A stretch of 64,000 bases of DNA from Halomarina oriensis. GTDB lineage: Archaea; Halobacteriota; Halobacteria; Halobacteriales; Haloarculaceae. The stretch spans positions 1-64,000 of the forward strand of contig NZ_WSZK01000039.1 of NCBI RefSeq assembly GCF_009791395.1. The letters are read 5' to 3'. How positions within the stretch are numbered: position 1 is the first letter of the stretch; each line of letters opens with the position of its first letter. The position numbers were made by a program, and so were the translations under genes. Under the pieces are notes generated by a model that saw only the letters and a program-made list of their open reading frames with translations, was not told where the DNA came from and made no database searches. Positions 6,431 through 49,577 of this stretch are shown in pieces.

Positions 6431-8434
6431 ATGAGTAGAGACGCACCCGGAGCATCCACCCCATCGTGGTTGGAGCACGAACGGGAGTACGACGACGAGG
6501 TCATCGGTGACGACACGCTGGGCGAGATGTTCGAGGAGAGCGCCGAGCGACATCAGACGCGCACGGCACAGCGGTACAAGGGCGGCATCTACGACCGTTC
6601 GCTGGTCGCCGAGGGAATCGTCGATGCGGCACCGCGTGGTGACTACGCGTCGCTGTCGTACGGCGAGATGCGCGACATCGTCCACAGCCTCGCCGCGGGG
6701 TTCCGTGACCTCGGCCTGACCGCGGGCGAGCGCGTCGGCATCTTCGCCGACACCCGAATGGAGTGGGCACAGACCGACTTCGGCGTCCTCCAGGCGGGTG
6801 GCGTCGTGACGACCGTCTACGCCGAGTCCTCCCCCAGGCAGGTCGAGTACCTGCTCGACGACCCCGGCGCGTCCGGCGTCGTCGTCGAGAACGAGGAACT
6901 GCTCGAACGCGTGCTGGAGGTCGAAGACGACCTCGACCTCTCGTTCGTCGTCGTGATGGACGAGACGTCGTTCTACGACGGCCGGGACGACATCCTCACG
7001 CTCGGCGAACTCCACGACCGCGGAGCGGAGGCGTTCGACGCCGACGAACACGCCTCGTGGCTCGACGAGCAGTCGTCCGAGGACCTCGCCAGCCTCATCT
7101 ACACGTCGGGGACGACCGGGCGACCGAAAGGGGTCGAACTCACCCACCGTAACCTCAGAGCGAACGTCAACCAGTGCCGTCGTCGGATGGGGCCACGCCC
7201 CGACAAGCCCGCCGACATGCCCGCACTGACCGCCGGCAGCGAGACGCTCTCGTTCCTCCCGCTGGCACACGTCTTCGAGCGCACGGCGGGGCACTTCCTC
7301 ACGTTCGCCTCGGGGGCGACCGTCGGCTACGCGGAGTCGTCGGACACCGTCGCCGACGACATCCAGACGCTCGCGCCGACGACGGTCACCTCCGTCCCGC
7401 GTATCTACGAACGCATCTACGACTCGATGCGCGAGCAGGCCGGCGACGGCGCGAAAGAGCGCATCTTCGAGTGGGCCGTCGACGTCGCCCGCGAGTACGC
7501 CCGGACCGACTCGCCCGGCGCGGCGCTGAAGGCGAAACGCCGCGTCGCCGACCGTCTCGTCTACTCGAACGTCCGCGAGAAGATGGGCGGCAACGTCGAG
7601 TTCTTCGTCTCGGGCGGTGGTAGCCTCTCGAAGGACCTCGCCGAACTGTTCATGGGGATGGGCCTGACCATCCTCGAAGGCTACGGCCTGACCGAGACGG
7701 CACCCGTCCTCACCGTCAACCCGATGGAGGATATCCGTCCCGGAACCCTCGGCGTTCCGCTCGTCGACGTCGAGAGCCGCGTCGACGACTCACAACTGGA
7801 CGACGACCAGAGACGTCGTGCCCGCCCCGGCAGCGACATCGGCGAACTCCAGGTCAAGGGGCCGAACGTCACGAGAGGCTACTGGGAGCGCCCCGACGCC
7901 ACCGAAGCGGCGTTCACCGACGACGGGTTCCTCAAGACCGGCGACATCGTCGAGGTGACCGACGACGGCTACCTCGTCTTCCACGAACGTCTCAAGCAGA
8001 TCCTCGTCCTCTCGACGGGCAAGAACGTCGCCCCCGGCCCCATCGAGGACCAGTTCGTCACCAGCGAGCGCATCGACCAGGTGATGGTCATCGGCGACTC
8101 CCGGAAGTTCGTCAGCGCGCTCATCGTCCCGAACTTCGAGGCCATCGAGAAGTGGGCCGACAAGTACGACGTCGACCTGCCCGAGGACAGAGCGGCCATC
8201 TGCGACCACGACCGCGTGAAGGCGTACATCCGAACGGTGGTCGAGTCGGTCAACGAGGGGCTAGAGAAAGAAGAGTCCATCAAGCAGTTCGAACTCGTCC
8301 CCGACGAGTGGACCGCCGAGAACGACCTGATGACGCCGTCGTTGAAGAAGAAACGCCGCAACATCCTCGAACGCTACCGCGGGGAGGTCGACCAGATCTA
8401 CGCCGACGCCGAGAGGGAGAAAGCACAGGCGTAG
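6431..8434 (+). CDS. Long-chain fatty-acid--CoA ligase (AMP-forming)
   Basis: A 667-residue acyl-adenylate synthetase that activates fatty acids with ATP and CoA. The AMP-binding signature LIYTSGTTGRPKGVELTHRN lies near residue 225. FFVSGGGSLSKDLAELFMG and ILEGYGLTETAP (near 415-425) follow, and the hinge motif is FLKTGDIVEV. The large insert and C-terminal YADAEREKAQA tail fit the FadD15/ACSBG-like long form. A TATA-like TTCATAAG about 28 bases upstream serves as promoter. It is not next to other beta-oxidation genes here; the acyl-CoA dehydrogenase family gene at 60755 is far away. Confidence 0.9.
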   Translation: MSRDAPGASTPSWLEHEREYDDEVIGDDTLGEMFEESAERHQTRTAQRYKGGIYDRSLVAEGIVDAAPRGDYASLSYGEMRDIVHSLAAGFRDLGLTAGERVGIFADTRMEWAQTDFGVLQAGGVVTTVYAESSPRQVEYLLDDPGASGVVVENEELLERVLEVEDDLDLSFVVVMDETSFYDGRDDILTLGELHDRGAEAFDADEHASWLDEQSSEDLASLIYTSGTTGRPKGVELTHRNLRANVNQCRRRMGPRPDKPADMPALTAGSETLSFLPLAHVFERTAGHFLTFASGATVGYAESSDTVADDIQTLAPTTVTSVPRIYERIYDSMREQAGDGAKERIFEWAVDVAREYARTDSPGAALKAKRRVADRLVYSNVREKMGGNVEFFVSGGGSLSKDLAELFMGMGLTILEGYGLTETAPVLTVNPMEDIRPGTLGVPLVDVESRVDDSQLDDDQRRRARPGSDIGELQVKGPNVTRGYWERPDATEAAFTDDGFLKTGDIVEVTDDGYLVFHERLKQILVLSTGKNVAPGPIEDQFVTSERIDQVMVIGDSRKFVSALIVPNFEAIEKWADKYDVDLPEDRAAICDHDRVKAYIRTVVESVNEGLEKEESIKQFELVPDEWTAENDLMTPSLKKKRRNILERYRGEVDQIYADAEREKAQA

Positions 8435-8449
8435 AGCGACGACTAGCGG

Positions 8450-8507
8450 CCTTTTTATCCACGAGTCGAGGTCGCTACGCGACCCCGACAGGGTAAAAGC
8501 TCAACCA
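8450..8507 (+). repeat. Structured intergenic element, copy A
   Basis: Begins 15 bases after the acyl-CoA ligase stop. The left arm CCTTTTTATCCACGAGT (8450-8466) is followed by an inner hairpin with stem GGTCGC/GCGACC and loop TAC (8470-8484). The right arm is ACAGGGTAAAAGCTCAACCA (8488-8507). TTTTATCC in the left arm can pair with GGGTAAAA in the right arm (one G-T pair). Copy B at 49198-49252 on the other strand has the same arms except for one T and one A/G change, but a different inner hairpin. I infer a conserved RNA structure at the 3' end of transcripts or a small non-autonomous mobile element. Confidence 0.8.
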
Positions 8508-8510
8508 TCA

Positions 8511-8644
8511 CCAGAACGGCTCCACCGTTCTGGTTAGTAGCCAGAAATCGCCGATTTCTGGCGACAAGAGCATCTCCTCACCCCCTCAGTCGCTACGTCA
8601 CCGGCGGCGAAGCCGCCGGTTCCGTGCGGGACCGGAGGTCCCGC
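8511..8644 (+). repeat. Row of four further near-perfect hairpins in a 363-base gene-free spacer
   Basis: The spacer 8435-8797 holds copy A and then four hairpins: CCAGAACGG/CCGTTCTGG (8511-8533, 5-base loop); CCAGAAATCG/CGATTTCTGG (8541-8561); CCGGCGGC/GCCGCCGG with loop GAA (8601-8619); GCGGGACC/GGTCCCGC with loop GGA (8626-8644). The first two share the outer pairs CCAGAA/TTCTGG but differ inside. No protein-coding signal is seen here. From 8645 to 8797 there is only further GC-rich sequence and then a more AT-rich stretch leading to the lipoprotein start. Confidence 0.7.
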
Positions 8645-8797
8645 TCTCGCTCCTTCGACGGTTCAGTTACCCCGCTTGCTCACTGCGTTCGCTCACGGCG
8701 CAGCGTCTCGACAGCACTGCACCTTGTTCGGCGGGACCCCTACGTCTTCACTTCACTCTACGAGAAAGTACTTGCATCGCGTCGCTTCAGTGCTACC

Positions 8798-9226
8798 ATG
8801 AGACGCCGTCAGGTCCTCGCGGCACTCGGTACTACAACACTCGCGTCGATAGCGGGGTGTGCGACGATAGAAGCTGAACTCGGGGTGCGTCAGGAAACAC
8901 TCGGTCCCGTCACAATAGAGAACACAGAGACGGAACCGTTCGACGTTCGTCTCGAAGTGCTCCGTGACGGAGAGCAGGTTCACACATCGATGCACGAACT
9001 CTCCGCAGTGTCGGCCTCGGAGTATTCTCCTGTGGTCGTCAATGACTGGGAAGACAATCCCGATGCTCGACGCTGGATTGTTCGAGCCAAAAACGATGGG
9101 CACGACTGGGTTTATGCCACGCTTGACGCTGCACGACCCGAGAACTGCCATACGGTCAACGTTCAGGTCGTTGATATCGGTCCGAATCCGATAGTCGTCC
9201 TTCCGATGATGTGCCCTTCAGGGTAG
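8798..9226 (+). CDS. Small Tat-type lipoprotein, function unknown
   Basis: A 142-residue secreted protein. The N-terminus MRRRQVLAALGTTTLASIAG ends at a lipobox Cys21 (IAGC) and carries the RR of Tat substrates. The mature part (about 30-142) looks beta-rich, with ETLGPVTIENTETEPFDVRL and VVNDWEDNPDARRWIVRAKN, and resembles haloarchaeal Ig-like lipoproteins in general style only. Its third codon positions are visibly more AT-rich than those of its neighbours (many ACA, AAC, GAT, ATA codons), which may mark recent acquisition. I chose the ATG at 8798 because it begins the signal peptide; the frame is open further upstream without coding character. Confidence 0.75.
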   Translation: MRRRQVLAALGTTTLASIAGCATIEAELGVRQETLGPVTIENTETEPFDVRLEVLRDGEQVHTSMHELSAVSASEYSPVVVNDWEDNPDARRWIVRAKNDGHDWVYATLDAARPENCHTVNVQVVDIGPNPIVVLPMMCPSG

Positions 9227-40542: not shown

Positions 40543-41167
40543 ATGGCACGAGCAGGCCTCACCGAGGCAGCCGAGGATAGAGGAAGTCGCCGCAAGGCGG
40601 CTGGTCGAGAAATTCTCCGATGCGGATAGCCCGCTGCCTCCACACACCGTCAGTGACCGTTCGGACCGTTCTTCCGAAGTAGACGCGACAGCCACCCGCA
40701 GTGGCAACGACGATGCCACGCCGCGCGACGACACCGCCGACGGCGACGACCACGCCGTCGACACCGACGGTCCGCTCGGCGTCGCCGTCGACGGCGTCGA
40801 GGTGACGCTCGCGCTGGGCGAGGACCGGCACGTCCTCTCACACGAGGACGCCCGACAGTTACGGGCGGCGCTCGACGACGCGCTCTACCGGGTCCGGGAG
40901 TTCACCCACACGACCGGTGAGCACCGTCCCGACGGGAGCTACGTCGTCGCCCGACGACGGGCGTCCTCGGCGGGTCACCGCAAGGTGTTCGAGGACGCCC
41001 ACGCGGTCCAGTCGTGTTACGACGCGCTCCCCGAGGCGTTCACCGCCGAGGACGTGACCTGTGCGTCGGGCGGGCGTCGGCACATGCTCGTCTGGCACTT
41101 CGCGGAGCATCCGGGCTACGACTGCGAGATAGTGTCGAGACAGCCACTGACCGCGAGGAAGGGGTGA
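40543..41167 (+). pseudogene. Conserved haloarchaeal protein gene with a frameshift near codon 12
   Basis: From the ATG at 40543 the frame reads MARAGLTEAAED and then fails at the TAG at 40627. The next frame (+1) picks up without a start codon at IEEVAARRLVEKFSDADSPL and stays open to 41167, giving about 200 residues in all, with HVLSHEDARQLRAALDDALY and HAVQSCYDALPEAFTAED. Joining the two halves gives the natural sequence ED-IEEV. A single AT dinucleotide lost from GATATAGAG to give GATAGAG (near 40577) explains the break. The only in-frame start for the long part is a GTG at 40802, inside a domain. I do not know the function. Confidence 0.75.
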
Positions 41168-48900: not shown

Positions 48901-49197
48901 AGTGACCAGAAACGTACTTCGAATCACCGCCAGCGGACTATTTGGCCACTCTCCGCTGTAACCAACTCGCCCCCTATATGCAAGCACGACGAAGCTGGCA
49001 GAATCGTGGGAGATTGAGCCTCTTTTTGACACACTTACGCTCTGTGTCTAACAGTTGAATCAGCTGAGGTCGGCTGGAAAAAACACACTATCCGCGCGAG
49101 TGTAACGAGCGCGGTTCGCCGTGAGGCGCACCAGCGCCGAGCGGGGTGAGGAGCGAACGGAGCGCTCGGAGAGCGCGAAGTGAGTGACGAATCCTTT
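48901..49197. other. AT-richer spacer, nothing recognised
   Basis: About 300 bases after the monooxygenase gene, without a convincing gene. 48901-49090 is AT-richer, continuing the composition of the upstream gene, and contains TTTTTGACACACTTACGCTC and a run GGAAAAAACACAC. From 49091 the normal GC-rich composition returns, with small repeated words such as GAGCGAACGGAGCGCTCGG typical of haloarchaeal intergenic hairpins. Confidence 0.5.
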
Positions 49198-49252
49198 TGG
49201 TCGAGCTTTTACCCTGTGGGGCGGCTTCGCCGCCCCACTCGTGGATAAAAGG
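49198..49252 (-). repeat. Structured intergenic element, copy B
   Basis: On the minus strand this element begins 4 bases after the stop of the 106-residue gene. The left arm CCTTTTATCCACGAGT is followed by a hairpin with stem GGGGCGGC/GCCGCCCC and loop GAA. The right arm is ACAGGGTAAAAGCTCGACCA. Arms match copy A at 8450 except for T4 against T5 and G against A, while the inner stem is wholly different. Outer arms TTTTATCC and GGGTAAAA pair with each other, as in copy A. Confidence 0.8.
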
Positions 49253-49256
49253 TCGG

Positions 49257-49577
49257 TTAGAACTGATACCGGCGTCCGTCGTTCTCGGGCGGGTCCGGCG
49301 CGCCGGTCATCTCCTCGTAGGTCATCCCCGAGAGGTACTCGTCGTAGGTGACGCCGTACTCGCGGCGGAGGTGGGCGTCGAGGCGGCCGGTCTCGACGGT
49401 CGACTGGAAGAGCAGGTGGACCGCACGCTTGAGCAGGTCGTCGGTCTCCTCGGGGCCGAGACCGGCTTCGAGGAGCGCGAGTTCGGTCTTCGTCTCCCGG
49501 TCGAGGGCGAGCGCGTGGCCGTCGCCGAGGTCCGCGTAGGCGGCGTCGACGGCGTCGGTGAGGTCGTCGAGACTCAT
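49257..49577 (-). CDS. Conserved-looking small protein, function unknown
   Basis: A 106-residue acidic, helical protein: MSLDDLTDAVDAAYADLGDG, then LDRETKTELALLEAGLGPEE, and a C-terminal REYGVTYDEYLSGMTYEEMT that may be the most conserved segment. No signal peptide or membrane helix. I do not recognise it. It is followed on the same strand by copy B of the structured element and is divergent from mutY. Confidence 0.7.
   Translation of the reverse strand: MSLDDLTDAVDAAYADLGDGHALALDRETKTELALLEAGLGPEETDDLLKRAVHLLFQSTVETGRLDAHLRREYGVTYDEYLSGMTYEEMTGAPDPPENDGRRYQF

Follow-up and report, generated by a model that had tools for sequence, protein, structure and literature searches.

The question raised by this locus is why two short palindromes, which share their arms and differ in the hairpin between them, should each lie directly past a stop codon. 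Archaeal transcription termination has been described in terms of U-tracts that mostly need no hairpin, and how transcripts end is still an open question. The two copies are found in a 64,000-nt stretch of the Halomarina oriensis genome (hereafter the window), where each of the arms, TTTATCCACGAGT and ACAGGGTAAAAGCTC, occurs exactly twice. The original prediction of a two-copy structured element holds essentially as it was described; its borders fell a few bases short, leaving out the downstream GACCAAAAGGATTC and the outer 3-bp helix, which in the conserved unit is CGA/TCG, CCA/TGG or GAA/TTC. As a whole unit, copy A spans 8448-8506 (+) and begins 13 nt 3' of the stop codon (TAG, 8432-8434) of a gene at 6470..8434 (+) coding for an AMP-binding acyl-CoA ligase/synthetase of 654 aa. 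Copy B spans 49255-49197 (-), 1 nt 3' of the stop codon (TAA, 49259-49257) of a gene at 49257..49577 (-), which codes for a 106-aa haloarchaeal protein of unknown function whose Halolamina homologue likewise carries the element 2 nt past its stop. Both copies fold better than shuffled sequences, with z-scores of -3.6 and -5.7 for the two.

The first hairpin, H1, occupies 8448..8502 (+) in copy A, with a T-run arm (8452-8460) and an A-run arm (8491-8499) enclosing an asymmetric ACGA loop (8461-8464) and a variable inner hairpin (8465-8489) with the loop TAC. In copy B, H1 (49202..49255, -) reads CGACCTTTTATCC-ACGA-GTGGGGCGGC-GAA-GCCGCCCCAC-A-GGGTAAAAGCTCG and is followed by the conserved 3' linker with a second A-run (49189..49201, -; ACCAAAAGGATTC) and by two further modules at 49120..49188 (-), namely H2 (GCGCTC-TCC-GAGCGC) and H3 (CCCCGCTCGGCGC..GCGCCTCACGG). 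The linker of copy A starts with AACCA (8503..8507, +) where the consensus is GACCA, and here the second A-run is interrupted by an extra two-hairpin module nested in the copy (8508..8572, +; ACCAGAACGG-CTCCA-CCGTTCTGGT, GGTTAGTAGCCAG, GCCAGAAATC-GCC-GATTTCTGGC), which recurs with other stems inside other copies of the element. H2 and H3 of copy A follow at 8573..8698 (+), H3 being CCCCGCTTGCTC..GCTCACGG, with two palindromes inserted in H2 at 8599-8648. We also observed a second modular palindrome pair (..CACC-stem-GGTTAGYAGCCAG-stem-CTGGC), nested in the linker after H1 and with exchanged stems, at 8510-8562 of the window and at loci L021, L058, L065, L074, L076, L084, L086, L108, L139 and L151, as well as the short palindromes CACCGGCGnCGnnGCCGCCGGTT and TGCGGGACCGGAGGTCCCGC, apparently inserted in hairpin loops, at 8599-8648 of the window and at L064, L132 and L151. 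The gap beside the element in the window further contains a small gene (8798-9226, +) with a lipobox-like N-terminus, and similar small genes lie beside elements in L001 (1828-2289, -) and L004 (1762-2262, +), the N-termini in the three gaps being ..LAGCG, ..IAGCA and ..IPGCS.

The original prediction had regarded chance or a local duplication as the better account should relatives hold no further copies and no transcript cover or end at either element, and the presence of just two copies within the window would fit such an account. A strict pattern, however, recovers 5 copies in the whole genome (4.07 Mb, G000) and none with the reversed-pattern controls. A covariance model gives 31 matches in the same genome, a few of them reverse-strand images of the same element, and, across seven Halomarina genomes, from about 13 to 64 per genome, nearly all of them intergenic. 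A class-wide strict pattern, ACC-T(4+)-N20-49-A(4+)-NCT[C/G]GACC-A(4+), is matched in 210 of 391 Halobacteria genomes, which represent 66 of the 86 genera, again with no match for the reversed controls, and its few matches outside Halobacteria look like chance; the pattern of the subtype to which we refer as subtype i was found only in Halomarina among 146 genomes of the family. With copies throughout the genome, the genus and the class, chance similarity or local duplication is barely credible and we reject it. The hairpins are members of an extensive palindrome family that is apparently undescribed and present in more than half of the sampled haloarchaea. A virus-borne origin was likewise rejected, as the element pattern had no match in 2.9 million viral contigs.

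Directly shown for the element are its copy number and distribution, its sequence, its covariation at the level of structure, its position and its strand. A first model (R1), built on 12 copies, had two-sided changes in 8 of 21 pairs, and a second (R2), built on 67 copies from seven genomes, has them in 15 of 21, with 94% of the alignment cells paired. In the inner stem two-sided changes affect all nine of nine pairs, its sequence being freely exchanged, and the outer helix covaries as well among the three forms given above. The covariation score of R2 is 0.43 as against 0.13 in shuffled alignments, with none of 500 shuffles reaching 0.43. The R2 alignment was fitted to the model and is hence biased towards it, a minor concern given the size of the effect and a slid-partner control in which 36-49% is paired. 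The general plan that emerges consists of the gene end, 0-19 nt, C[CG]ACC, a run of T4-6, a subtype-specific motif (ATCCACGA.., ATGCACGC.., GTACCCGA.. or GCTGCG..), the freely exchanged GC hairpin, A4-6, NCT[CG]GACC and A4-7. The cassette often comes with two further hairpins: a motif of the H2 type ([CG]CCGCTCG) lies 3' of the element in 45 of 78 copies and in 49 of 777 background flanks, and a GCGGTAC-like motif of the H3 type in 28 of 78 and 9 of 777, respectively.

The placement of the element was assessed in 1.66 Mb of two Halomarina genomes, with 800 kb taken from contig C7 and 800 kb from G007. Upstream of 29 of the 31 elements a gene ends in the sense direction, in 25 cases no more than 20 nt away and mostly at 0-4 nt. 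Convergent genes flank 16 of the 31, and just 2 precede an outward gene, the baseline gaps in this sample being 259 tandem, 72 convergent and 145 divergent. In a wider Halomarina set, 62 of 79 unique matches have a sense gene end within 25 nt. Together with the two-sided changes in R2, this is the combination of many copies after stop codons and compensatory changes that the original prediction had named as its test. The element is nonetheless carried by a subset of transcription units, and most genes are without it. In other genera three placements are seen, namely 2-6 nt past a sense stop, 11-58 nt past the stop of an antisense gene and 41-52 nt upstream of the start of an outward gene. At five loci in as many genomes (L029, L048, L033, L039 and L040; G008, G010, G041, G054 and G137) the element comes after one and the same conserved flank, ..TCGTTAGTGTTCCGGGCGTACATTA, which is non-coding and has ACA close to its end; this flank, seen in several genera, may represent the 3' terminus of an H/ACA-like RNA that is not annotated.

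Most copies start 0-4 nt past a stop codon, which recalls the REPs of E. coli that stall ribosomes when located within 15 nt of the stop codon (PMC12306157). By analogy, a hairpin at such a distance could slow the release of the ribosome and thereby act in translation. Such an explanation is very unlikely, and we reject it as the main reading, as untranslated RNA genes carry the element at the same spacing: it starts 2-3 nt 3' of the RNase P RNA gene in three Halomarina species (G000, G007 and G006) and, in three others (G003, G004 and G005), shortly 3' of the gene for SRP RNA, while the remaining congeners have no element at these positions. The element therefore marks the ends of transcription units rather than stop codons.

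Its U-tract, CC followed by T4 to T6, starts a few nucleotides past the stop or the RNA 3' end, and in Halomarina gaps of at least 80 nt T4 runs outnumber A4 runs within 40 nt past stops by 64 to 14, an excess consistent with U-tract termination. Termination at U-tracts is established in archaea including Haloferax (PMC7237163, PMC8716108). In Haloferax volcanii T-stretch terminators are functional, with T5C giving 95% and one hairpin 59% termination, and the median first 3' UTR there is 97 nt (PMC7237163), long enough to contain H1, so that read-through past H1 is plausible. On balance we favour, with slightly better than even confidence, the reading of the repeated palindromic cassette of about 55 nt as a lineage-wide haloarchaeal 3'-end element that combines a U-tract terminator with a hairpin barrier. 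Transcription leaving the gene would run into a signal known to terminate transcription in archaea, the U-tract (CCUUUU to CCUUUUUU). An RNA polymerase reading through it would produce H1, in which the U-tract pairs with the A-tract around the freely exchangeable GC hairpin, and H1 could then serve as a barrier to 3'-5' decay, defining the end region together with the A-tract linker, H2 and H3. As the opposite strand carries two T-tracts (T-GGTC[C/G]AGN-T), the element might also stop a converging transcript. It is an inference that transcripts cover the element and end there, and that its hairpin acts at the RNA level; in Halomarina the elements most likely help to end or protect the RNA made there.

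Several observations count against this 3'-end reading. The U-tract lies in the 5' arm, and a polymerase stopping there would never make the hairpin, which consequently matters only in read-through RNA or as DNA. Outside one conserved U.G position of subtype i, there are 26 G.U and 19 A.C mismatches and hence no excess of the former, and the loops have no strand preference (14 TTC and 13 GAA). Since neither count is biased, the covariation by itself, while indicating that the palindrome is maintained, does not establish action as RNA. The dissimilarity of hairpins at orthologous genes, the patchy presence of the element and the copies upstream of start codons in other genera also count on this side. 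Thus, where the original prediction proposed a selected RNA structure at transcript ends, the placement at the RNase P and SRP RNA genes upholds the transcript ends, and the mismatch and loop counts do not bear out the RNA action. The lack of either bias, the copies 41-52 nt before start codons, just upstream of promoters, and the T- and A-runs of matched length on both sides would all suit an inverted repeat that acts as DNA, one that insulates neighbouring transcription units because a dimeric protein binds it or torsional stress extrudes it. A strand-specific reader is a better fit for the 5'/3' asymmetry of the element, with ACGA opposite a single A in subtype i and the order ACC-T..A-NCTSGACC-A, as it is for the bias of Halomarina copies towards the sense strand of the neighbouring gene, and we consider such a DNA boundary quite improbable.

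The runs themselves offer a further clue, in that the T-run, the paired A-run and the unpaired second A-run are of equal length in most copies. Their lengths are 4,4,4 in 50 of 53 Halomarina copies, 5,5,5 in 10 of 13 copies of genus g2 (4,4,4 in the other 3) and 6,6,6-7 in genus g5; class-wide, the T-run and the second A-run agree in length in 77% of copies, as against 38% expected by permutation (maximum 55%). Pairing accounts for the equality of the T-run and the first A-run, and the equality of the second A-run lacks that explanation. Either the second A-run contacts the U-run or competes for it in RNA, or all of the runs are T-tracts on one strand or the other; the former is mildly favoured by the retention of the second A-run in tandem contexts in Halomarina, where there is no converging gene. 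One may go further and envisage a class-wide 3'-end RNA element with a tertiary fold, in which the second A-run would dock alongside the U-A helix to form a triple helix or act as a competitor for the U-run. This would make it a dedicated archaeal device for transcript ends, one that stays with its genes and exchanges its hairpin over and over, a proposal that we put forward tentatively and hold to be unlikely.

Conservation of the place is seen without conservation of the sequence. Among 526 ortholog pairs of G000 and G007, the element is present in both members of 8 pairs, in G000 only in 3 and in G007 only in 5, so that it is shared by 8 of the 16 element-bearing pairs (Fisher p 1.5e-12); in most of the other 8, judged by eye, an element-like structure is found in the flanks. 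Hairpins at orthologous genes resemble each other no more than those at unrelated loci do (median identity 0.67 and 0.66, respectively; p=0.32). In other genera, 15 of 33 genes with a sense-placed element are homologues of one of only 39 Halomarina clusters of element genes, including MenB, a protein ending in ..RKGMKTELP.. and, in Halolamina, the window's own gene with copy B. Deep conservation at RNase P was rejected, with the element at none of 29 haloarchaeal loci beyond Halomarina, and of 27 readable MenB loci 3 have it, these being from three families, with two fragments in addition. Across these two unbiased samples the presence of the element is patchy. A repeated and covarying palindrome fixed throughout the Halobacteria where housekeeping genes and those for RNase P and SRP RNA end would make a specific 3'-end signal that can be tested, and the conservation of its position while the sequence of the structure is replaced would amount to a natural experiment.

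The same data have to be weighed against a dispersed palindromic repeat of the REP/MITE/SPRITE kind, which would spread by unknown, trans-acting means and have no role in termination in the host; its copies would survive mainly at gene ends, insertion elsewhere being harmful, and its palindromes would be perfected by copying of DNA hairpins. Near-identical copies within genomes, such as the inverted pairs at L115 and L116 with the same hairpin, argue for it, as do tandem copies 131-152 nt apart, with at least five copies in about 2 kb of Halobellus among the matches listed, further palindromes nested by insertion, the gain at RNase P in Halomarina only, perfect palindromes with no wobble intermediates, and ortholog hairpins as dissimilar as any others. 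Set against these are the exact recurrence of the element at the same genes in different genera, with an unchanged spacing of 0-4 nt, the strong sense-strand bias (29/31), the want of viral matches noted above, and the lack of any obvious target-site duplication, with only ACC seen by eye on both sides. We hence regard a repeat with no such host role as rather unlikely, and more plausible than the DNA boundary. The short mobile element that the original prediction had offered as its other option finds a counterpart in the near-identical copies, the tandem arrays and the gain at new loci, signs of dispersal that keep a mobile repeat in play. Dispersal as a repeat is indeed also likely alongside the 3'-end role, and a repeat that has been domesticated would accommodate both sets of observations. 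Tandem near-identical copies in small-satellite-like arrangements, mostly about 110-160 nt apart among the matches listed, were observed in L286 (Halobellus), L236 (Halopiger), L223 (Halegenticoccus), G029, G053, G098 and G136.

The comparison with known systems begins with RNA families. Neither copy matches Rfam 15 at the gathering threshold, and no hit overlaps the element at E up to 1, by which a known RNA family is rejected; we found no description of similar haloarchaeal REP or terminator repeats in the open-licence literature, and the original prediction likewise knew of no named family that matches. Elsewhere in the window, at 40566-40618 (+), lies the leuA-Halobacteria RNA (RF03001; 74 bits), a known cis-regulatory RNA. 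A bacterial intrinsic (rho-independent) terminator was rejected, as every aligned copy has its T-run before the hairpin and an A-run after it. The element shares with archaeal U-tract terminators, such as T5C of Haloferax volcanii (PMC7237163), a sense U-tract of length 4-6 close downstream and at the ends of transcription units. Unlike those terminators, which need no hairpin, its U-tract is part of a conserved, repeated palindrome with shared sequence, and both paired and unpaired A-runs match the U-tract in length. The integron attC site is likewise an imperfect palindrome in sense orientation right after a stop, with conserved ends, a variable middle and asymmetric unpaired bases; in contrast to it, the arm consensus here (C[CG]ACCTTTT / AAAANCT[CG]GACC) contains no GTTRRRY core, and the element follows chromosomal housekeeping and RNA genes rather than cassettes. 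Of MITE features, the inverted arms are present, no constant duplication beyond ACC is seen by eye, and no clean empty site was found. Closer parallels are the REP/BIME sequences of bacteria, which are high-copy extragenic palindromes like the present element, often close after stops, numbering tens per genome and built of modular hairpins, and the SPRITE, BOX and RUP repeats of Streptococcus pneumoniae (PMC10969869), terminator-like hairpin repeats that cluster and insert in one another. However, REP stems are fixed, whereas here the inner stem is exchanged and only arms and runs are fixed; SPRITEs differ in sequence and lineage and have their T-run after the hairpin in rho-independent-like fashion, whereas here it comes before. 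Thus, the element resembles REP and SPRITE in kind, and is set apart from them by its exchangeable stems, its matched T- and A-runs, its very tight placement and its confinement to Halobacteria; if it turns out to be a mobile repeat, REP would have an archaeal counterpart that extends through a whole class and is placed with unusual precision.
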